Counted from the stretch's first letter, positions 29,252-38,222 are shown. The stretch: 64,000 bases of DNA from Thermococcus sp. JdF3 (GCF_012027495.1 NZ_SNUK01000001.1:186001-250000); one strand, 5' to 3'. The notes: generated by a model not told the origin, from the letters alone. Program-made: numbers and translations.

Positions 29252-30310
29252 TCAATCACCCACATTAAGCACCTGCCTCAATGTTTTAAGCTGTTTCTCG
29301 CTCGGGCTTCTCTCATCAAGAACAAGGAGTAGCATTCCTCCGTAGAGTGTTACGTAGTCCGAGAGCGTGGCGAGGAACTTCATAAGGGAGCGGAAGTCGT
29401 CGTACATCATCAGATACTCCAGTCCCTCGATGACCACCACTCCGGTGACACCCTCGCGGTGAGCTTCAGCCAGATACGAGCGGGTTCTCTCGATTATCCT
29501 GTGGAGCTGGGTAGGCCCGATGTTTCCGGGTTCTTCAATGGTGGTAAGCGAGTGCACCTCCCATTTATCCGGCAGGTCTCTCTTTCTCGTGAAGGCCAGC
29601 ACCGGGAACTCTGAAAGGGCCTCAATGTAGGACGCGAACCTGTCAGGGGGGACGATGAAAACTCCCTTCTTTATGACGTCCGGCCCGATGGTTTTTCCGA
29701 CGTGCCTGAACCTCTCGGATAGGACGACTTGAAGGAAAGCTATAACTTCAAGGACGTTAAAGAAGGCTCCCAGCGTGAAGCCTATTGGGGCGAACCATTC
29801 CACGGGTCTGAGGAAGGGATAGTCCATCTTGTGAACTCCATGGAGGATGATGACGGCGCTGAGGAGAGTTCCGGAGCGTGGATAGAACCTCCGAACACTC
29901 CATAGAATAACACCCGCAAATGTGTAGAATATCCCTGAAATCCCGAAAGAGATGTATATGGGAACGGGTTTCGTGACGTAGCTTGCGTACAGGATTATGT
30001 AACTGGAAACCGTGAGGGGGAGTGTTAGGGCGACGAGTTTTAGGGAACGTGTCGAAACGCCTACGGCTTCCTCGTCAAGGAGAGACACGACTCCTCCGAC
30101 GAGAAAGGAAACGCCAGCCGCATGAAACAGCGGAATACCCACTTCAAGTCCCGTGAAATCTGAAACTGTGGAGAGTGACGAGCTCAGAAAAAAGAGGGCC
30201 CAGAGCAGCAAAGAATCCCTCCGGTAGCGCCTCCAGTTGAGGAAAAGTGCCAATCCGGCGACCACCTTGAGGGAAAAGCTGAGGAGCTGACTTGTAAGGA
30301 GCAGGTTCAT
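29252..30310 (-). CDS. Membrane protein with C-terminal DUF835 domain
   Basis: About 352 residues from the ATG after GGGGGT (an ATG 12 bases earlier is possible). Seven or so hydrophobic segments fill the first ~210 residues; the soluble C-terminal part (VFIVPPDRFASYIEALSEFPVLAF ... VVVIEGLEYLMMYDDFRSLMKFL) is of the archaeal DUF835 type, a RecA-like fold without obvious Walker motifs seen in sensor-like proteins. Lies 35 bases after purM on the same strand. Role unknown; a membrane sensor is a guess. Confidence 0.75.
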   Translation of the reverse strand: MNLLLTSQLLSFSLKVVAGLALFLNWRRYRRDSLLLWALFFLSSSLSTVSDFTGLEVGIPLFHAAGVSFLVGGVVSLLDEEAVGVSTRSLKLVALTLPLTVSSYIILYASYVTKPVPIYISFGISGIFYTFAGVILWSVRRFYPRSGTLLSAVIILHGVHKMDYPFLRPVEWFAPIGFTLGAFFNVLEVIAFLQVVLSERFRHVGKTIGPDVIKKGVFIVPPDRFASYIEALSEFPVLAFTRKRDLPDKWEVHSLTTIEEPGNIGPTQLHRIIERTRSYLAEAHREGVTGVVVIEGLEYLMMYDDFRSLMKFLATLSDYVTLYGGMLLLVLDERSPSEKQLKTLRQVLNVGD

Positions 30311-30345
30311 CCAAACCCCCATTAAAGTTTTTGGGTTTTCATGAA

Positions 30346-31347
30346 TTAAAGCCTTACCCTGTAGTTCTCAACGATTATCCCCCGCTCCTCCCCCACCGTT
30401 CCGAGTTCAAAGCTCTTGAAGTGTTTGTTTAGGATTTCCAAAGCGGCCTCCTTCTCCCCCTGTGGGACCACCACGACGAAGCCGACCCTCATGTTGAAAA
30501 CGCGGAACATCTCCTCCAGGGGGACGCCGTTCTCGTGGATCAGCCTGAATATCCCCTCGATTGGTGGCATCTTCAGCCTGAAGCCGTAGCCCGTGAGGCG
30601 CTTGAGGTTGGTCAGCCCGCCCCCGGTTATGTGTGCCAGCCCGTGAACCTCAACGCTTTCCAGCAGCTCAAGAACTGCCTTCACGTAAATCCTCGTTGGC
30701 TCCAAAAGCCACTCCCAGAGCTTCCTGCCCTCGTACTCGTAGTCGAGGCCGTATTTAGGGATTAGAAGCTTCCTTGCAAGGGTCAGGCCGTTGGAGTGGA
30801 TTCCCGAACTGGCGATCCCGATGACGGCGTCGCCGGGCCTTATCTTCTCACCCGTGATGACCTTCTCTCTATCCACCACGCCGATGGCGGTTCCCGCCAA
30901 ATCGAAGCCGTTTATCAAATCGGGCATAACCGCCGTTTCCCCGCCGACTATCGCTATTCCCGCATGTCTCGCCCCCTCGTGGAGGCCCTTCCCTATTTCC
31001 CCAAAAACCTTCTCGTTCGGCTCCTTTACGGCAAGGTAATCGACGAGGGCAACCGGCTCCGCCCCAACGCAGAGCAGGTCGTTCACGTTCATGGCTATCA
31101 TGTCTATCCCTATCGTGTCGAACTTCCCAACGGCCTCGGCAACGAGCACCTTGGTTCCAACTCCATCTGTGGTCATCGCGAGGTAAAAGCTTCCGAAGTC
31201 GAGCAGGGCCGAGTAGTGGCCTATCCCGCTCGGCTCACCGGGTTTTCCTCTCCTGAACTCGAAGGTCGCCTTTGCGAGGTCTATGATTCCCCCGAGGGCC
31301 CTCGCAGTCTTTTCGTCATCAACTCCAGCCTGGGCGTAGGTGGGCAT
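30346..31347 (-). CDS. purM: Phosphoribosylformylglycinamidine cyclo-ligase (AIR synthetase)
   Basis: 333 residues from the ATG after GGTGATGCTC. Begins [10 protein letters not shown]; further motifs are [42 protein letters not shown] and [11 protein letters not shown]. It closes the imidazole ring of AIR. Confidence 0.97.
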
Positions 31348-31377
31348 GAGCATCACCGCCGATAGTTCTCGAGCATG

Positions 31378-31387
31378 CTTAAAAGGT
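31378..31387 (-). promoter_or_regulatory. purM promoter
   Basis: Minus-strand CCTTTTAAGC about 31 bases ahead of the start. Confidence 0.45.
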
Positions 31388-31443
31388 TTGCCGTGTTCAT
31401 GCTAAATCCCATTAAAAAAGATTGAAAATTGAACATTTAACTG

Positions 31444-32448
31444 TCAATTAAGGCGCCTGAGCAGGGGCAACGCGCCCAGCAGGACGAGCAGTCCGGGCCC
31501 GCAGACCTTATTTCCTGCCCCCGACGGTGTTTTCGTCCTTCCAGTGCTCCCGGACGGCGGACTATGGGTTTCCCTTAGACCTACACTATTCGTGGTCTGT
31601 GTCCCCGGGGGTTTGCATACGAGCGGCCCAAGACTCATTGAAATTTTGAGGGGAGACGCAACTCCATTCTTGGGAACGAAGATTAGGGGGGCATCTTCGA
31701 TGCCGCTACCTGCTGGAAGTCTCACCGGCGTTTCGCTGACGATAACAACCCCGTTACGGGCTCTAAAGGCCGTAAAATTCGCGCTGGAGGCATTTATGCT
31801 GCCGGGCAGCTGTAAAGCGTAGCGCCTCTCCCCGAGGGTGAAAGTTAGGGTTCCGCCTTTGAGTTCTACGGGAGTGCCCTTCAGGCCCTTATGTGGCAGC
31901 CTTATATGCGAGGCGTTTATTTCGCGGCCCTCACAGCTCTTGGTGACAGTCCCGTTGGAGTACTCCGTAACAACGCACCTTGAGACCCTCTCAATGCATC
32001 CATCGTCAAAGCGGTAAACCTCGGTTACCGTAACGTCCTTAAAGAGCGTAAAGTTGTGAGGTTCGCCGTTGATAGAGACGGTAACGTTTCTGTAGGGCAC
32101 CTTAGCCTCTTCCACCCTAACAGCGTAGAGCGTCCCGTTTATAAAGCCCACGGGGGTGGTGTTGGTTAGGAGTGAATTAACGCTCCCGAGCAGGAATGCC
32201 TCTTTCCCATCGGTCAATATGTAGTAATTCCTGTTCGAATCCGGCAGGTCCAGTTTGCTCACCCATTCCCCGGCCACCATCTCGCACGTCCAGCTCACAT
32301 GGCCAACCACGATTAGGAGCCAGCCGTTGACTTGGTGAACCGACTCGACAACGTAGGTCTCGGCAGGGGTGCAGTCCGCCGTTGCCGTGGGAAAAGAGAG
32401 CAACAACAGCAAAATGGAGAAAATCAACAGAGGTTTTGGATTATACAT
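31444..32448 (-). CDS. Secreted CGP-CTERM protein, cassette A
   Basis: 334 residues. Signal peptide MYNPKPLLIFSILLLLLSFPTATA, then an ectodomain starting DCTPAETYVV with several NGT/NVT/NFT glycosylation-type sites and paired cysteines, a Ser/Thr-rich stalk, and the C-terminal anchor KVCGPGLLVLLGALPLLRRLN. It is a clear paralogue of the protein at 33636-34646 (shared NGWLLI, CEMVAGEW, YYILTDG and PHNFTLFKDV). The ATG follows GTGAGGAGT and overlaps the DUF4855-type gene by 8 bases. Function unknown; surface-exposed. Confidence 0.82.
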   Translation of the reverse strand: MYNPKPLLIFSILLLLLSFPTATADCTPAETYVVESVHQVNGWLLIVVGHVSWTCEMVAGEWVSKLDLPDSNRNYYILTDGKEAFLLGSVNSLLTNTTPVGFINGTLYAVRVEEAKVPYRNVTVSINGEPHNFTLFKDVTVTEVYRFDDGCIERVSRCVVTEYSNGTVTKSCEGREINASHIRLPHKGLKGTPVELKGGTLTFTLGERRYALQLPGSINASSANFTAFRARNGVVIVSETPVRLPAGSGIEDAPLIFVPKNGVASPLKISMSLGPLVCKPPGTQTTNSVGLRETHSPPSGSTGRTKTPSGAGNKVCGPGLLVLLGALPLLRRLN

Positions 32449-33421
32449 ACTCCTCACCGAATCTTCTTGAAAATCCCTCCATTTCTCGAATGACATCAAA
32501 ATCCACACTAAAGTAGTATGCCAGATTCCCGTATTTCCAGCCCAATGCGTCTTTTTGAGCGGTTATGTACTGGAAGGCTGTTTCTTTTGCATCATTTGTA
32601 TATTGAATCAAGCACTCATGCGTAAATCTGGGGCCGCATCTTTCTATTAGAGATTCCCTGAAGTTTTCTTCAATGTGTGTTTTGGAGATGTAGTTATAGA
32701 GGAGACTTCTGTCTGCTTCCATTTCCATAAATACATTAAATGCATCATGCCTGTTTTTAAGAGACTCAAGGGTTCTAATCCATTCTACAAGCTTTTCATA
32801 GTTATATCTGTAAGTGTGTTTCCCATCTGAAATTATAGACTTTTGGTAATAGTTCGGTTGCACGAACACATAATCAAAGAACTCAAATGCTCCTGGGTAC
32901 TTTCCCATAGGGAATATATTCGTTCCTGCAAGATTCAGCGTGCATGCGGATGGAATCCAGATGAACTCAAAACCATTGTTGTGAATGCTTTCTGCCATGT
33001 CTCTAATAATGCTGAAGGAAATCCCTGCCTGTTTTTGTATCTGGTCCTCTTTAAACATCCATGCATTTTCTAATGTCCAGTAGAACCCTTTGAGGTTCGT
33101 GTCGCTTGACGTCATAAAGTCCTCGATCCACCCGGCCCAATATGACCCCTCAAACCTGCCGGCAGTATCCCCCACTGGGCGCTTGCTGGGGTTGAAGAAA
33201 GGAATAGGGGCATAATAAGATATATCCATCTCATCTTGCAGATATCTGGAAAGATAGTGTGCATCTTCACGTCCATTTCCTGTATATCGTATATGCTTAT
33301 AGGAAAACAGCACAACGGCAGAGTCAAAACCCAAGTTTCTGAACTCTCTTGCAGTGCCACTCATTCTTGACTTATACCCGGAGCCGTTCCACTTAACCCA
33401 CCACAGACCAAACTTCGACAT
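32441..33421 (-). CDS. DUF4855-like TIM-barrel protein, cassette A
   Basis: 326 residues, no signal peptide. Motifs shared with the copy at 35661: KFGLWWVKW, RYTGNG, YYAPIPFF, SYWAGWIEDFM, GFYWTLENAW, FIWIPS, FDYVFVQPNYYQ, FMEMEADRS and AYYFSVD. The WIP...QPNYY pattern and invariant acidic residues recall DUF4855, a glycoside-hydrolase-like barrel; this assignment is from memory of the family pattern. It is translated just before the secreted partner. Low GC and unbiased codons relative to the pur genes. Confidence 0.7.
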   Translation of the reverse strand: MSKFGLWWVKWNGSGYKSRMSGTAREFRNLGFDSAVVLFSYKHIRYTGNGREDAHYLSRYLQDEMDISYYAPIPFFNPSKRPVGDTAGRFEGSYWAGWIEDFMTSSDTNLKGFYWTLENAWMFKEDQIQKQAGISFSIIRDMAESIHNNGFEFIWIPSACTLNLAGTNIFPMGKYPGAFEFFDYVFVQPNYYQKSIISDGKHTYRYNYEKLVEWIRTLESLKNRHDAFNVFMEMEADRSLLYNYISKTHIEENFRESLIERCGPRFTHECLIQYTNDAKETAFQYITAQKDALGWKYGNLAYYFSVDFDVIREMEGFSRRFGEEYV

Positions 33422-33588
33422 AAGGAATCACCAACTGCTAGTAGTTAATGACCATATAAAAACCTTCTGGTTAAACAAAACCATTAAAAACGTCCTAAAA
33501 GTTCCAAAATAGGTTGAAATTATGGCATAGTAATCCCTTACTCCTGCGTATTTGTGGAGAAGTGTGGAGTTGTTTGCCATTTTTCTGC
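33396..33588 (-). repeat. Long conserved leader repeat, copy A
   Basis: Nearly identical to 36670-36864. It covers the first codons and the upstream region of the DUF4855-type gene. Positions 33454-33524 (71 bases) match 36729-36799 without a difference, and 43 bases ending at 33588 match the end of copy B exactly. Confidence 0.92.
33454..33463 (-). promoter_or_regulatory. Promoter of cassette A
   Basis: Minus-strand GTTTTTATAT forms the TATA box inside the conserved repeat, 33 bases before the ATG; GGTGATTCCTT is the ribosome binding site. Confidence 0.6.
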
Positions 33589-33635
33589 ATAAAAAATGGC
33601 CTAAAGGTTTAAAAATTAACAATTTAATGTTAATT

Positions 33636-34646
33636 TTAGTGCCTTCTCAGCAGGAGACCCGTCGTAGTGGCTAGAATTATGAACGCGGGCCCGCAGATTT
33701 TGCTGTTTTCTTTTGTGCTGGTGGGATGAGAGGGGGTGGTTTTGATTGGTGGGGTGTGGGGAGTGTCCGTTGAATTCGCCGTGACGTTCTCACCCGCTGA
33801 TTTGGTCGTGTTCACGCTCGCCTTCTCACAGACGAACTTTTCCAGGCTCAAAACACTGGGAGGACGGACGGTTTTGTTCTCAACCGTAAAGAGTAGAGGG
33901 ACCTCATCAATACTTACCCCTACCGGGACCTGGATGACTCCAGTGTTAATCAAGACAGCCCCCCGTTTTGCCATAAACGCTTCCAGCTTCAGATTTGAAG
34001 CGTTGACCCCCTCAGGGAGTGCGAGGGTGTAGCTTTTTCTTCTTAATGTAAAGTGGAGCCTTCCGTTCTCAATTCTTACGGGAGAGCCAGCGAGGGAAAC
34101 GTTAGGAGGTTTAAAGGCAGAGGCGTTCCAGATGAATCCCCTGCAGGTGTTTATTTTTGTCCCGTTGGGATATGAAACGATTCTGCACGTTGAAACGTTT
34201 TCCAAGCAGGTTCCGTTGAACCTGTAGAGCGTCTTCACTATCACGTTTTTGAGAAGTGTGAAGTTGTGGGGTCTGCCTTCAACTGTAATGGTTATGTTTT
34301 GATATGGAACGCGGGTGCTGGTGACGGTTAAAACGTAGAGCGTCCCGCTCATAAACCCGACAGAAATTCTCTGCCCGATGCCGGTGCCTCCAAGCAGGAT
34401 TGTTTTGTTCCCGTCGGTGAGGAGGTAGTACTCATCGGGTATGCCAACCAGCACCGGCGTCCATTCTCCTGCTATCATCTCGCAGGCATAACTGTTCTTG
34501 ACAACTTCAATGAGGAGCCAGCCGTTGAAAGAGCTGATTGAATTTACAGAATAAAGCTCATACGACGAGCAATCCGCCGAAACGAGCGGAAGGGAGAAGA
34601 GCAGGAGAAATATTACCGCAAGTCCGGAAAAGTTCGTTTTCTTCAC
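33636..34646 (-). CDS. Secreted CGP-CTERM protein, cassette B
   Basis: About 336 residues from GTG 34646 (GTG 34655 is also possible; GGGAGG precedes both). Signal peptide ending FSLPLVSA, ectodomain starting DCSSYELYSV, many N-glycosylation-type sites, a Thr/Pro-rich stalk (TPHTPPIKTTPSHPTST) and the anchor KICGPAFIILATTTGLLLRRH. Paralogue of 31444-32448. Overlaps the preceding gene by a few bases. Confidence 0.82.
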   Translation of the reverse strand: MKKTNFSGLAVIFLLLFSLPLVSADCSSYELYSVNSISSFNGWLLIEVVKNSYACEMIAGEWTPVLVGIPDEYYLLTDGNKTILLGGTGIGQRISVGFMSGTLYVLTVTSTRVPYQNITITVEGRPHNFTLLKNVIVKTLYRFNGTCLENVSTCRIVSYPNGTKINTCRGFIWNASAFKPPNVSLAGSPVRIENGRLHFTLRRKSYTLALPEGVNASNLKLEAFMAKRGAVLINTGVIQVPVGVSIDEVPLLFTVENKTVRPPSVLSLEKFVCEKASVNTTKSAGENVTANSTDTPHTPPIKTTPSHPTSTKENSKICGPAFIILATTTGLLLRRH

Positions 34647-35677
34647 CTCCTGCACCTCCCTGCAGTAACGACCGCTGAAATTAGAGTGGCAAGAACGAGC
34701 AACCCCGATCCGCAGATGCCATCTTTGGTTTCTTTCGTGCTGGTTGGTGTTTTCGTTGTATTTGATGAGATTGTTGTTCTGTTAGGGGCGGTACTAGTCC
34801 CAGCGGTCGTGCTGGTGGATGTAGTCACGTTCGCTTTCTCGCAGACCGTCACGTTGGCTATCTTAACACTGTCTGGGAACCAGTAGCGTAGAAAGGGGGC
34901 GTTCGGCGGGACGAAGTCGTCCCTTGTAACGTTCATGTTAAGGTAAACGAGGGTGATGTTCTTCACGTGACCCTCCTTTTTGAGGAGGAAGTAAATCGGA
35001 AAAACGCTCGAATTGACGACTTCAGTGGGGCCAGGAGACCACCTCAGCGCGTTCTTGCTCATTGTGATCCACACGTCGCTCATATTTGCGTAGTCCCATT
35101 TTTTGAAGCTCGGGGACTGAAGCTCAATCCGCCAGCCATTTATCTCGTCGCTGATTTTTCCCCTTGGGAGCTTAAGCCAGCTAACATTGACCAGCCCAAT
35201 GCATAAGTTTTTTGGATTGAAGAGGTAGATGCCATGGACATGAGTCATCGGAGGGTAGAACGTAAGGTTCAGGTACCAGCTCCCGTTTATGAAGCGCGCA
35301 CCATTAAGAGAATGGCTGAGAATGTAGGGGTAAAGGGCCCTGAACTGGTCAAGGAGGGTGCTATAGTTTGGGTAAAGAGCTCTGAACGCAGGCGTGAAGT
35401 TGAGAATGTGGAGCTGGGAGTCATTGAAGTAGAAGAGATATTCCTCTCCCCCAAGAACCTCCCCGGTGGTTGCGTTGGCGCAGTTGATTCCCGAGAGGGG
35501 AGGACAGTATGGCTCGTAAGTGAGGATGAGGAGAGGGATAAAAGCGTCGCTTCCGTTGGAGATGACGGAGTACCGAACGTTATAGACGTAATCGACTGAT
35601 TCAACTGAAACCACCGTTTTGGAAAAGAGGGTGAGGAAGAGGAACAGGATGACGATGGTTTTAAACGTACGGTTCAT
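34643..35677 (-). CDS. Secreted protein with CGS-type C-terminal anchor, cassette B
   Basis: 344 residues; signal peptide (FKTIVILFLFLTLFSKTVVS), ectodomain with many Asn-glycosylation-type sites, a Ser/Thr-rich stalk (TTSTSTTAGTSTAPNRTT) and a C-terminus GICGSGLLVLATLISAVV plus basic tail, i.e. the CGP-CTERM layout with Ser for Pro. Not obviously related in its ectodomain to the other two secreted proteins. Its ATG overlaps the DUF4855-type gene by 17 bases. No counterpart exists in cassette A. Confidence 0.78.
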   Translation of the reverse strand: MNRTFKTIVILFLFLTLFSKTVVSVESVDYVYNVRYSVISNGSDAFIPLLILTYEPYCPPLSGINCANATTGEVLGGEEYLFYFNDSQLHILNFTPAFRALYPNYSTLLDQFRALYPYILSHSLNGARFINGSWYLNLTFYPPMTHVHGIYLFNPKNLCIGLVNVSWLKLPRGKISDEINGWRIELQSPSFKKWDYANMSDVWITMSKNALRWSPGPTEVVNSSVFPIYFLLKKEGHVKNITLVYLNMNVTRDDFVPPNAPFLRYWFPDSVKIANVTVCEKANVTTSTSTTAGTSTAPNRTTISSNTTKTPTSTKETKDGICGSGLLVLATLISAVVTAGRCRR

Positions 35678-36695
35678 TGAGTTCCCTCCGGCAACGTTCT
35701 TGGAGTGCGTCTATCACTTTGAGGTCATTGCTGAAGTAGTAGGCCCGGTCCGATGGTTCCCATCCGATGTCGTGTAATGCCCTCATGTAATCCAGGGCAT
35801 AGTTTATTGCTTTCCCATGCTCGTGCTCCTTGCAGTTTTCATAACAGGTTTTGAGGTTGCGGTCACACGTCATGTTTTCGGGGCATTTGGAGGAATACCC
35901 GCACGGAATGCCCCGGACGGTCCTGTCTGCTTCCATCTCTATTGAGACCGTTGTCGTGGAGTTGGGGTTTTGTTCTTTGATTTTCTTTGGGAGTTCTTCG
36001 TAAATCCAACGGATTTTCTCTACGAGTTTCTCGTAAGTGTAGGGCAAACCGTGGTTCCCCTTTTCATCGAGTGTTGGATACTGATAATAGTTTGGCTGGA
36101 CGAAGACATAATCAAAGTAGCCTCCGATTTTGAGTATTCCATCAAAAGCATCCTTACGCAAGTATGTCACACCCCTGTTCCCAGTTGCTGGAATCCAGAT
36201 TAGTTCCTGCCCGTGGTCGTGAACGTAGTTGGACATCTTTTGAATGAATTCCACAGACACACCGGTGCCATCATTGGGAGTAGTTTGAAGACAGCTCTCG
36301 TAACTCCAGTAAAAGCCGAGCCTGTTGCTGTCAACGACACTAAGGACACCGTCAATCCAGTCCTTCCAGTAGGAATTATTGAATCCCTCGGACGGGTTAT
36401 CCCTCGGTTTTTTACTCTCGTACTTGTAGAAAGGGATCGGCACGTAGTAATTCATGCTGCCGATCCTTGATGAGAGCCACAAAGCCATGCGAAGCCCATC
36501 ATCATAACCGTTTCCAGTATAGTTGATTCCCTTTCCTTCTCCACTGAGGAAGACTACCCTGTCAAAACCCCTGTTCTTGAACCACTGGACGGCTTCATCG
36601 TAAGAAGTTGGCCGTTTTCCTCCAAGGGTCATCCTCGAGGTGTAAGTTCTAAGATTCTCGTCCCATCGGACCCACCACAGACCAAACTTCAACAT
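35661..36695 (-). CDS. DUF4855-like TIM-barrel protein, cassette B
   Basis: 344 residues; shares the whole motif series with 32441-33421 (KFGLWWVRW, NYTGNGYDD, YYVPIPFY, SYWKDWIDGV, GFYWSYE, LIWIPATG, FDYVFVQPNYYQ, SIEMEADR and AYYFSND). It carries an extra Cys-rich insertion near the C-terminus (CGYSSKCPENMTCDRNLKTC), unusual for a protein without signal peptide. Function unknown; a glycosidase-like fold is inferred. Confidence 0.7.
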   Translation of the reverse strand: MLKFGLWWVRWDENLRTYTSRMTLGGKRPTSYDEAVQWFKNRGFDRVVFLSGEGKGINYTGNGYDDGLRMALWLSSRIGSMNYYVPIPFYKYESKKPRDNPSEGFNNSYWKDWIDGVLSVVDSNRLGFYWSYESCLQTTPNDGTGVSVEFIQKMSNYVHDHGQELIWIPATGNRGVTYLRKDAFDGILKIGGYFDYVFVQPNYYQYPTLDEKGNHGLPYTYEKLVEKIRWIYEELPKKIKEQNPNSTTTVSIEMEADRTVRGIPCGYSSKCPENMTCDRNLKTCYENCKEHEHGKAINYALDYMRALHDIGWEPSDRAYYFSNDLKVIDALQERCRRELNEPYV

Positions 36696-36864
36696 AAGGA
36701 ATCCCCAACTGCCAGTAGTTAACAGCCAATATAAAAACCTTCTGGTTAAACAAAACCATTAAAAACGTCCTAAAAGTTCCAAAATAGGTTGAAATTATGA
36801 GAGTGGTAATCCCTTACTCCCGCGTATTTGTGGAGAAGTGTGGAGTTGTTTGCCATTTTTCTGC
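36670..36864 (-). repeat. Long conserved leader repeat, copy B
   Basis: Partner of 33396-33588. It occupies most of the 231-base gap between the cassette B genes and purT and ends 7 bases before the purT TATA region, so the duplicated DNA abuts the purT promoter. Confidence 0.92.
36729..36738 (-). promoter_or_regulatory. Promoter of cassette B
   Basis: Minus-strand GTTTTTATAT, the same TATA element as in cassette A, 34 bases before the ATG. Confidence 0.6.
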
Positions 36865-36870
36865 TTAAAA

Positions 36871-36882
36871 AGGCTTAAATAT
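36871..36882 (+). promoter_or_regulatory. purT promoter
   Basis: AGGCTTAAATAT about 45 bases ahead of the purT ATG; GAGGTGATCCTT is the ribosome binding site. Confidence 0.5.
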
Positions 36883-36926
36883 GGGCAATTTTTAACATTT
36901 TAACGTCAAAACTTGAGGTGATCCTT

Positions 36927-38222
36927 ATGATTAAGCCCCGCGATGAGCTCGGAACTGCTATGACCGATTCTGCCCAGAAGATAGTGCTCCTCGGAAGCGG
37001 TGAGCTTGGAAAGGAGATAGCCATCGAGGCCCAGCGCCTCGGCGTGGAAGTTATCGCCGTTGACCGCTACGCCAACGCTCCGGCCATGCAGGTTGCACAC
37101 CGCTCCTACGTCGGTGACATGAAGAACGCTGACTTCCTCTGGAGCGTCATCGAGCGCGAAAGGCCGGATGCGATAATCCCTGAGATAGAGGCCATAAACC
37201 TTGACGCCCTCTTCGAGCTTGAGAAGGACGGCCACTTCGTCGTCCCGAACGCCAAGGCCACGTGGATAGCGATGCACCGCGAGAGGACGAGGGAAGCCCT
37301 CGCGAAGGAAGCTAAAGTTCCGACCTCACGCTACGCCTACGCAACGACCCTCGACGAGCTCTACGATGCCTGCGAGAAGATCGGCTACCCCTGCCACACC
37401 AAGGCCATAATGAGCTCCTCGGGAAAGGGCTCCTACTTCGTGAAGGGCCCGGAGGACGTTCCGAAGGCCTGGGAGGTGGCCAAGATGGAGGCCCGCGGCA
37501 GCGCCGACAAGATAATCGTCGAGGAGCACATAGACTTCGACGTTGAGATAACCGAGCTTGCCGTCAGGCACTACGACGAGAACGGTGAGATCGTTACCAC
37601 CTTCCCGAAGCCGGTCGGCCACTACCAGATTGACGGCGACTATCACGCGAGCTGGCAGCCGGCGGAGATAAGCGAAAAGGCCGAGCGCGAGGTTTACAGG
37701 GTAGCCAAGCGCATAACGGACGTCCTCGGCGGCCTCGGACTGTTTGGCGTTGAGATGTTCGTTAAGGGCGACAAGGTCTGGGCGAACGAGGTCTCCCCGA
37801 GGCCCCACGATACGGGCATGGTTACGCTTGCATCCCATCCTACAGGGTTCTCCGAGTTCGGACTCCACCTCAGGGCAGTCCTCGGCCTTTCGATACCCGG
37901 CGAGTGGGTCGAAGAGTATCGTCTGTTCCCGCTCCTAACGCCCGCAGCTACTCACGTAATCAAGGCCAACGTTTCAGGCTACTCCCCGCGCTTCCGCGGC
38001 TTGGTCAGAGCCATGAGCGTCCCCAGCTCGACGATTCGTCTCTTTGGAAAGCCTGAGGCATACCCTGGCAGAAGGCTGGGTGTTGCGCTCGCGTGGGACA
38101 GGGATGTGCAGGAGGCAAAGAGACGTGCCGAGATGGTGGCGCATATGGTTGAGCTTAGAACCCGGAGTTCAGAGTGGCACTCCCAGGATTATGAAAAAGC
38201 CGGTCATCTCTGCGGGCTCTAG
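36927..38222 (+). CDS. purT: Formate-dependent phosphoribosylglycinamide formyltransferase
   Basis: 431 residues; ATP-grasp enzyme with GSGELGKEIAIEAQRLG at the N-terminus, PEIEAIN, IMSSSGKGSYFV, EEHIDFDVEITELAVR, EVSPRPHDTGMVTL and FGKPEAYPGRRLGVALA. It formylates GAR using formate and ATP instead of formyl-tetrahydrofolate, in keeping with the PurP-type enzymes below. Confidence 0.97.
   Translation: MIKPRDELGTAMTDSAQKIVLLGSGELGKEIAIEAQRLGVEVIAVDRYANAPAMQVAHRSYVGDMKNADFLWSVIERERPDAIIPEIEAINLDALFELEKDGHFVVPNAKATWIAMHRERTREALAKEAKVPTSRYAYATTLDELYDACEKIGYPCHTKAIMSSSGKGSYFVKGPEDVPKAWEVAKMEARGSADKIIVEEHIDFDVEITELAVRHYDENGEIVTTFPKPVGHYQIDGDYHASWQPAEISEKAEREVYRVAKRITDVLGGLGLFGVEMFVKGDKVWANEVSPRPHDTGMVTLASHPTGFSEFGLHLRAVLGLSIPGEWVEEYRLFPLLTPAATHVIKANVSGYSPRFRGLVRAMSVPSSTIRLFGKPEAYPGRRLGVALAWDRDVQEAKRRAEMVAHMVELRTRSSEWHSQDYEKAGHLCGL

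Follow-up and report, generated by a model that had tools for sequence, protein, structure and literature searches.

Related Systems and the Thermococcus Cassettes

VARTIG, a hypervariable immunoglobulin-domain module of Thermococcales (PMC8416519), offers the nearest comparison for the gene cassettes described here, two of which lie in tandem between the divergent purM and purT genes in a 64,000-nucleotide stretch of DNA (bases 186001-250000 of contig 1, hereafter the window) from the 2.1-Mb genome of Thermococcus sp. JdF3. Each cassette starts with a gene for a barrel protein related to the Pfam family DUF4855, which is followed by one (cassette A) or two (cassette B) genes for secreted proteins, referred to below as partners. 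Like the cassettes, VARTIG is essentially restricted to Thermococcales, encodes exported or membrane proteins and is patchily distributed with many fragments; in both, the first gene has a constant N-terminal and a recombining C-terminal part, and the downstream genes are variable (PMC8416519). The first gene of VARTIG, however, encodes a large secreted protein with several immunoglobulin (Ig) domains, whereas that of the cassettes encodes a barrel without a signal peptide, and the cassettes, unlike VARTIG, comprise two or three genes, occupy recurrent sites and have a common promoter, their sequences being unrelated to it. Exchange between loci of one genome is visible in the cassette DNA, whereas the authors of the VARTIG study detected none (PMC8416519). 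The Pfam search gave no Ig-type match for the window proteins or for ten further partners, and barrels, hydrolases and CGP proteins are not mentioned in the main text of the VARTIG paper (PMC8416519).

Polymorphic toxin systems resemble the cassettes in combining a constant 5′ part with a 3′ part that is exchangeable together with a neighbouring gene; unlike in these systems, no toxin domain was found in the cassettes, the boundary of exchange lies inside one enzyme fold, and the putative active site needs both barrel halves. Glutamates following strands 4 and 7 constitute the β4/β7 layout of the retaining glycosidases of clan GH-A. The barrel has the (β/α)8 fold and the two glutamates in common with these enzymes, e.g., GH5 and GH17, but it lacks the strand-4 Asn, its TM-scores do not exceed 0.47, and no solved structure matches it in sequence. 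The bacterial DUF4855 proteins found in this study have the same barrel core, with a conserved strand-4 Glu and QPNYY and ExExD motifs; they are, however, long proteins that carry a signal peptide and an N-terminal region of SLH-type appearance, whereas the Thermococcaceae barrel is stand-alone and the exported, anchored part is encoded by a separate gene. A DUF4855 gene of Bacteroides thetaiotaomicron, BT0442, is listed near genes of α-N-acetylglucosaminidase and SusC/D type (PMC10434189). Finally, the CGP-CTERM surface proteins (TIGR04288) are exported proteins with a C-terminal Cys-Gly-Pro, a hydrophobic segment and a basic end, as are proteins of the cassettes, but the CGP-CTERM model detects just one of the three window partners, with a score below the cutoff, and a CGx motif near the C-terminus is found in only 43 of the 76 partners of full-length pairs.

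The two cassettes of the window appear to belong to a dispersed family of cassettes that recombine and comprise two or three genes each. It is tentatively suggested, with somewhat less than even confidence, that this family is a recombination-diversified cell-surface system of Thermococcaceae, distinct from VARTIG, with an enzyme that tailors surface glycans. No description of such cassettes was found in the searchable open-access literature, in agreement with a preliminary description of the window, made from its sequence, which could not match the system to a described one.

Pairing of Barrel and Partner Genes

Relatives of the barrel were found in 53 of the 115 genomes of the phylum, belonging to seven of the 12 genera (six in Thermococcaceae plus one from a different family within the class), and the number of matches per genome ranges from 1 to 11. 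Many of these matches are fragments or copies containing stops, and such broken copies in many genomes indicate fast birth and decay of cassettes. A gene on the same strand, coding for a protein with an N-terminal hydrophobic signal, follows 102 of the 113 barrel open reading frames (ORFs) for which downstream DNA was available; the exceptions are for the most part barrels broken into halves, and one probably has a wrong start. In the 76 full-length pairs, 74 partners contain both an N-terminal signal or transmembrane segment and a C-terminal transmembrane segment (5 of 132 in comparison genes), and the barrel and partner genes overlap in 62 pairs. A distant lineage of 267-aa barrels (L203, L204, L205, L208, L212), present in several Thermococcus genomes and retaining the Glu/Glu/Asp motifs discussed below, is also paired, having its own exported partner of 282-286 aa. 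In Methanocaldococcus sp. SG1 (L122:4863-6968), a degenerate barrel with an internal loss, missing the strand-4 region, is followed by an intact-looking exported protein of 494 aa.

The preliminary description had proposed duplicated barrel/CGP-type cassettes with overlapping genes within the purine region, a DUF4855-like barrel of glycosidase-type appearance, and partners that are anchored at the cell surface and heavily glycosylatable. All five ORFs at 31444-36695 (minus strand) were confirmed, with overlapping genes; the barrel and a secreted gene were found together throughout Thermococcaceae, so that the lack of co-occurrence named there as a refutation was not observed, and the assignments of the barrel and of the partners agree with the Pfam score and modelled fold and with the terminal segments and sequon counts given below, respectively.

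Barrels broken by stops or frameshifts were also observed beside intact or broken partners at L068, L076, L181, L182, L192, L199 and L202. A viral origin of the cassettes was considered and rejected, since no relatives were found in viral contigs and no viral fold match was significant.

Mosaic Structure and Recombination

Comparison of cassettes that occupy the same site in different species gave, in the well-conserved subset, an average identity of 89% for the flanking genes, against 48% for the barrel C-halves, and the partners scored 18% of self. In many pairs of cassettes, the barrel N-halves are 80-91% identical and the C-halves only ~33%, and in others it is the C-halves that agree; related cassettes are alike in the promoter and barrel N-half and different in the C-half and partner, or vice versa. 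In DNA profiles, the transitions appear as sharp steps. Two loci of one single-contig genome, L171 and L172, show 100% identity over ~480 bp, between -79 and +400 relative to the barrel gene, and ~45% thereafter. The loci L070 and L158 are 90-98% identical up to ~+460, mostly 30-60% identical through the C-half and the partner body, and mostly 80-98% identical again from the partner tail outward.

Trees of the N-halves and C-halves of 39 barrels have 5 of 36 splits in common, and each half rejects the tree of the other in the approximately unbiased test, which used 5,000 resamplings, fewer than the program recommends. A merely higher conservation of the N-half does not account for this pattern, since the means between different sites are similar (0.39 vs 0.34) and pairs with a far more similar C-half exist. 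With the N-half taken into account, similarity of the partners follows the C-half (partial Mantel 0.49, 0/500); its correlation with the N-half, when the C-half is taken into account, is weaker (0.27, 0/500). The number of partner-family changes needed is 8 on the C-half tree, 12 on the N-half tree and ~19 when shuffled. Comparison of the trimmed partner bodies divided them into about ten unrelated families, all associated with one barrel family. The pairing is not strict, since the C-half and the partner can be uncoupled, and the fixed two- or three-part system that had been proposed earlier gives way to one barrel type with about ten unrelated partner families. No conserved 3′ end of the cassette and no attachment site were seen between different sites.

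These patterns suggest that homologous recombination would generate the diversity, with the conserved promoter and the barrel N-half as a 5′ anchor and the partner tail or chromosomal flank as a 3′ anchor; the segment between them, comprising the barrel C-half and the partner ectodomain, would be exchanged among loci and species.

The history of the window cassettes can be considered in the same terms. The upstream DNA of A and B is 92% identical over ~185 bp, and identity drops to 23-50% at the ORF start. The N-terminal two thirds of the barrel of cassette A (BA) resemble the barrels of L078, L082 and L057, located at other sites, and its C-terminal part resembles those of L046 and L048, from a cassette at a third site; the 3′ end of cassette B, together with the flank, matches the purM-side cassette of genome G024. 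Cassette A looks like a recombinant unit assembled from other cassettes and not like a drifted copy of B. Tandem duplication followed by divergence, as supposed in the preliminary description, was rejected, since the similarity of A and B is confined to the promoter and does not extend to the coding DNA, and since A combines parts of other cassettes. On the simplest reading, B was resident, and a second unit, with a coding part drawn from other cassettes, was added alongside it via recombination through the repeated pur-promoter/cassette-promoter DNA; this order of events is inferred.

Fold and Candidate Active Site of the Barrel Protein

Both window barrels, BA and BB (the latter from cassette B), scored above the gathering cutoff of Pfam DUF4855 (PF16147; 27 bits) over the whole protein, with 29.5 and 32.4 bits, respectively; the match is limited to the region of strands 4-6 and was found at E ≤ 0.01 in 32 of 34 barrel relatives. 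AlphaFold 2 modelling of the barrel, conducted with 34 relatives, predicted eight strands in TIM-barrel order (mean pLDDT 94). Among 76 barrels, E133, located after strand 4, is kept in 75, E255, at the end of strand 7, in all 76, and D257 in 75; Q200, Y203, Y204, W130 and W167 are also near-invariant. The strand cores are conserved, and the loops differ in length and sequence. The same Glu/Glu/Asp positions are found in bacterial DUF4855 proteins and in the distant Thermococcus barrel lineage. In four bacterial genomes (L123-L126), the DUF4855 domain is located near the C-terminus of proteins of ~810-830 aa with a signal peptide, whose SLH-type N-terminal region was judged by eye.

The best fold matches in the PDB were mostly TIM-barrel glycosidases (GH17, GH18 and GH5), and sequence searches revealed no solved structure homologous to the barrel. 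The arrangement of the glutamates makes the barrel a putative enzyme working like a retaining glycosidase; membership in clan GH-A is not asserted because of the low TM-scores and the absent Asn. The putative catalytic residues are found in both barrel halves.

Partner Proteins and Predicted Location of the Barrel

The partners of the window gave no Pfam family above the cutoff. Those of the SP type (SPA of cassette A and SPB of cassette B) belong to a family with six invariant Cys residues; the AlphaFold 2 model of SPB (pLDDT 78) contains an all-β ectodomain, a disordered stalk and a C-terminal helix, and no significant fold match to it was found in the PDB. The curated cutoff of TIGR04288 (21 bits) is not reached by SPB, and SPA and SGB, the SG-type partner of cassette B, are unmatched; inspection by eye, however, revealed the CGP-CTERM hallmarks (a signal peptide and Cys-Gly-Pro followed by a transmembrane segment and basic residues) in SPA and SPB, and SGB has Cys-Gly-Ser instead. 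The genes of the cassette, usually overlapping, are presumably translationally coupled, and the second product would be a Sec-exported, heavily N-glycosylatable, C-terminally anchored protein.

No signal peptide was found in any of the full-length barrels examined. A TATA box lies ~35-42 nt upstream of the barrel ATG in both A and B, the in-frame codons upstream of BB contain no start, and those upstream of BA include a stop; for these reasons BB and BA are considered to have no signal peptide. A hidden signal peptide upstream of BB, in the in-frame segment LTRRFLYWLL, was rejected, since this segment overlaps the TATA box and has no start codon, and a stop is found in A. The number of N-glycosylation sequons in the barrels is at chance (141 observed and 130 expected, 1.08x), whereas sequons are enriched 3.9x in the partners and 3.2x in other secreted proteins. 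This contrast, together with the missing signal, suggests that the barrel is cytosolic, whereas the partner is glycosylated and exposed at the surface.

Chromosomal Sites and Promoter Element

The 76 pairs are distributed over ten recurrent chromosomal sites plus singletons, and the recurrent sites span several genera. Eight of the genomes with full-length pairs, representing four genera, have a cassette at the pur site; that of L177 is located downstream of purT and not between purM and purT (compare L111). Five cassette-free relatives have a purM-purT gap of ~85-100 bp. The presence of surface-gene cassettes among purine genes is thus explained by the purM-purT intergenic region being one of about ten recurrent sites.

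In the core clade, the cassettes have in common a GTAA-N-TTAC inverted repeat, ~107-122 nt before the start, and a TATA box near -40. The repeat was found in 27 of 71 barrel promoters vs 3 of 143 control genes, and the form tested occurs three times in the genome of the window, twice at the cassette promoters. A 17-bp word of the purT promoter region, GTTTGCCATTTTTCTGC, which has its homologue between purM and purT in relatives without a cassette, is present on the purT-side flank and again between the cassettes; 0.18 exact repeats of this kind were expected from shuffles.

A conserved word, AATTTTTAACATTTTAACGTCAAAAC, occurs with its neighbours in the purM-purT intergenic DNA (36847-36930 on the purT side and 31357-31443 on the purM side). 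It is present in most of the Thermococcus genomes searched, where a second copy often lies ~2 kb away, and may serve a purine regulator as its operator. The region between purC and purM contains a gene for a DUF835 protein (29252-30322, Pfam 95.7 bits), the N-terminal region of which looks membrane-embedded, and a DUF835-like neighbour is also found near the pur genes of relatives, e.g., L059 and L104. An Rfam scan revealed no RNA families in the window. The listed GTG start of SPA is probably incorrect, the more suitable start being the downstream ATG at 32448 (MYNPKPLL..., 334 aa), which leaves an 8-nt overlap.

Table 1. Features of the purM-purT region in the window, in order of position
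Feature	Position	Strand	Description and basis
purM	30346-31356	minus	purM-side neighbour of the cassette region
purM-side flank	31357..31443	.	part adjoining purM alignable with the empty site in relatives (degenerate repeat copy)
SPA, SP-type partner of cassette A	31444..32508	-	354 aa as listed; signal peptide, ectodomain, CGP and C-terminal transmembrane segment; sequence, 40% identity to SPB in alignment
BA, barrel of cassette A	32441..33421	-	326 aa, DUF4855-like, mosaic; Pfam score, segment identities
Promoter/upstream element of cassette A	33422..33605	-	inverted repeat GTAAGGGATTAC at ~33530-33541; TATA box at ~33455-33462
Second copy of the 17-bp word	33572..33588	+	between cassettes B and A; exact repeat
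SPB, SP-type second partner of cassette B	33636..34655	-	339 aa; signal peptide, all-β ectodomain, disordered stalk, CGP and C-terminal transmembrane helix; TIGR04288 16.9 bits, Cys pattern, AlphaFold 2 model
SGB, SG-type partner of cassette B	34643..35677	-	344 aa; signal peptide, ectodomain, T/S-rich stalk, CGS and C-terminal transmembrane segment; overlaps BB by 17 nt; sequence, 16-member family alignment with conserved Cys
BB, barrel of cassette B	35661..36695	-	344 aa, DUF4855-like (β/α)8 putative retaining glycosidase; candidate catalytic residues E133 and E255, also D257; signal peptide absent; Pfam, AlphaFold 2 model, conserved residues among 76 barrels
Promoter/upstream element of cassette B	36696..36879	-	inverted repeat GTAAGGGATTAC at ~36806-36817; TATA box at ~36730-36737
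17-bp word	36848..36864	+	purT-side flank; exact repeat, alignment to empty sites
purT	36918-38222	plus	purT-side neighbour of the cassette region

Discussion

The proposed system would operate as follows. The first gene would encode a DUF4855-type (β/α)8 enzyme with a glycosidase-like Glu pair and no export signal, which would act in the cytoplasm on a glycan destined for the partner, e.g., a lipid-linked or otherwise cytosolic oligosaccharide; a swap of the module would then change both the surface protein and its sugar decoration, and could serve kin recognition or escape from viruses. Several observations weigh against this interpretation. A small classifier, trained on 13 secreted and 74 cytosolic clusters, places the barrels with extracellular proteins by amino-acid composition and Cys content, and the bacterial relatives of the barrel are secreted. 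The fold matches in the PDB have TM-scores of only ~0.36-0.47, and residue 132, the position of the GH-A Asn before the strand-4 Glu, is mostly Tyr or Leu. Physical linkage by itself can account for the co-inheritance of the C-half and partner, and some similar C-halves adjoin unrelated partners. About half of the genomes of the phylum have no cassette, and the cassette is therefore not essential. The analysis establishes the pairing, the mosaicism, the recurrence of sites, the common promoter element, the conserved layout of the active site and the unequal sequon content of barrels and partners; the enzymatic activity and substrate of the barrel, its cytosolic site of action and the biological purpose of the system are inferred.

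The secreted-like composition of the barrel would suit an enzyme exported with or by its partner, i.e., a glycosidase anchored outside the cell, with the partner as an anchor and substrate-binding subunit. Bacterial DUF4855 domains, located in long signal-bearing proteins that look SLH-anchored, are consistent with such an arrangement, as are the overlapping genes, which suggest matched amounts of the products; it is nevertheless considered unlikely, because the full-length barrels examined have no signal peptide, their sequons stay at chance when those of the partners and other secreted proteins are strongly enriched, and the partners are too unrelated for an obvious common docking domain. 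The lack of a secretion signal in the enzyme-like part also argues against a conflict system resembling polymorphic toxins, where one product would harm or inhibit competitors, the other would protect the producer, and an arms race would drive the variation. The constant 5′ part, the tendency of the exchangeable 3′ part to move with the neighbouring gene, and the patchy, strain-specific distribution with many broken copies are what such a system would produce, but neither Pfam nor PADLOC searches of the window proteins, nor a Pfam search of ten further partners, revealed toxin or defence families, and the catalytic residues lie in both barrel halves, which means that the variable half does not form a toxin domain of its own. 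This explanation is judged quite unlikely.

A cytosolic glycosidase-like barrel next to a surface protein could also form a nutritional pair, in which the surface protein binds extracellular oligosaccharides, the glycosidase degrades them after uptake, and the diversity reflects diet; the DUF4855 gene near carbohydrate-use genes in Bacteroides is in line with this. A transporter gene was not seen, however, as a constant part of the cassette in the mapped loci, and about ten unrelated partner families, with exchange of half an enzyme together with a surface protein, fit recognition better than diet, which makes the nutritional role similarly unlikely. The least probable of these alternatives is a selfish or neutral family that spreads because repeated promoter and barrel DNA recombines, without selection for surface diversity. 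Although the many pseudogenised copies, the sites that are empty in many genomes and the repeated DNA at the pur site can be read in this way, the near-invariant active-site residues, the retained promoter element and the gene pair kept across genera indicate purifying selection, and no transposase or integrase was noticed in the cassettes.

The reading preferred here, a recombination-diversified surface system with a glycan-tailoring enzyme, would have consequences for the uncharacterised family DUF4855, which gains a candidate active site and a biological setting. It is possible, if rather doubtful, that the cassettes represent a second, hitherto undescribed surface-diversification system, in which homologous recombination exchanges a surface glycoprotein gene and the specificity half of an intracellular glycan enzyme as one block, so that protein identity and sugar coat change together, in the service of kin recognition or virus escape. 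Self/non-self recognition and the variation of virus receptors in archaea are poorly understood; if the proposal is true, Thermococcaceae would possess a hypervariable module unrelated to VARTIG, with recombination anchors visible in DNA, a putative enzyme core and a behaviour that can be tested.

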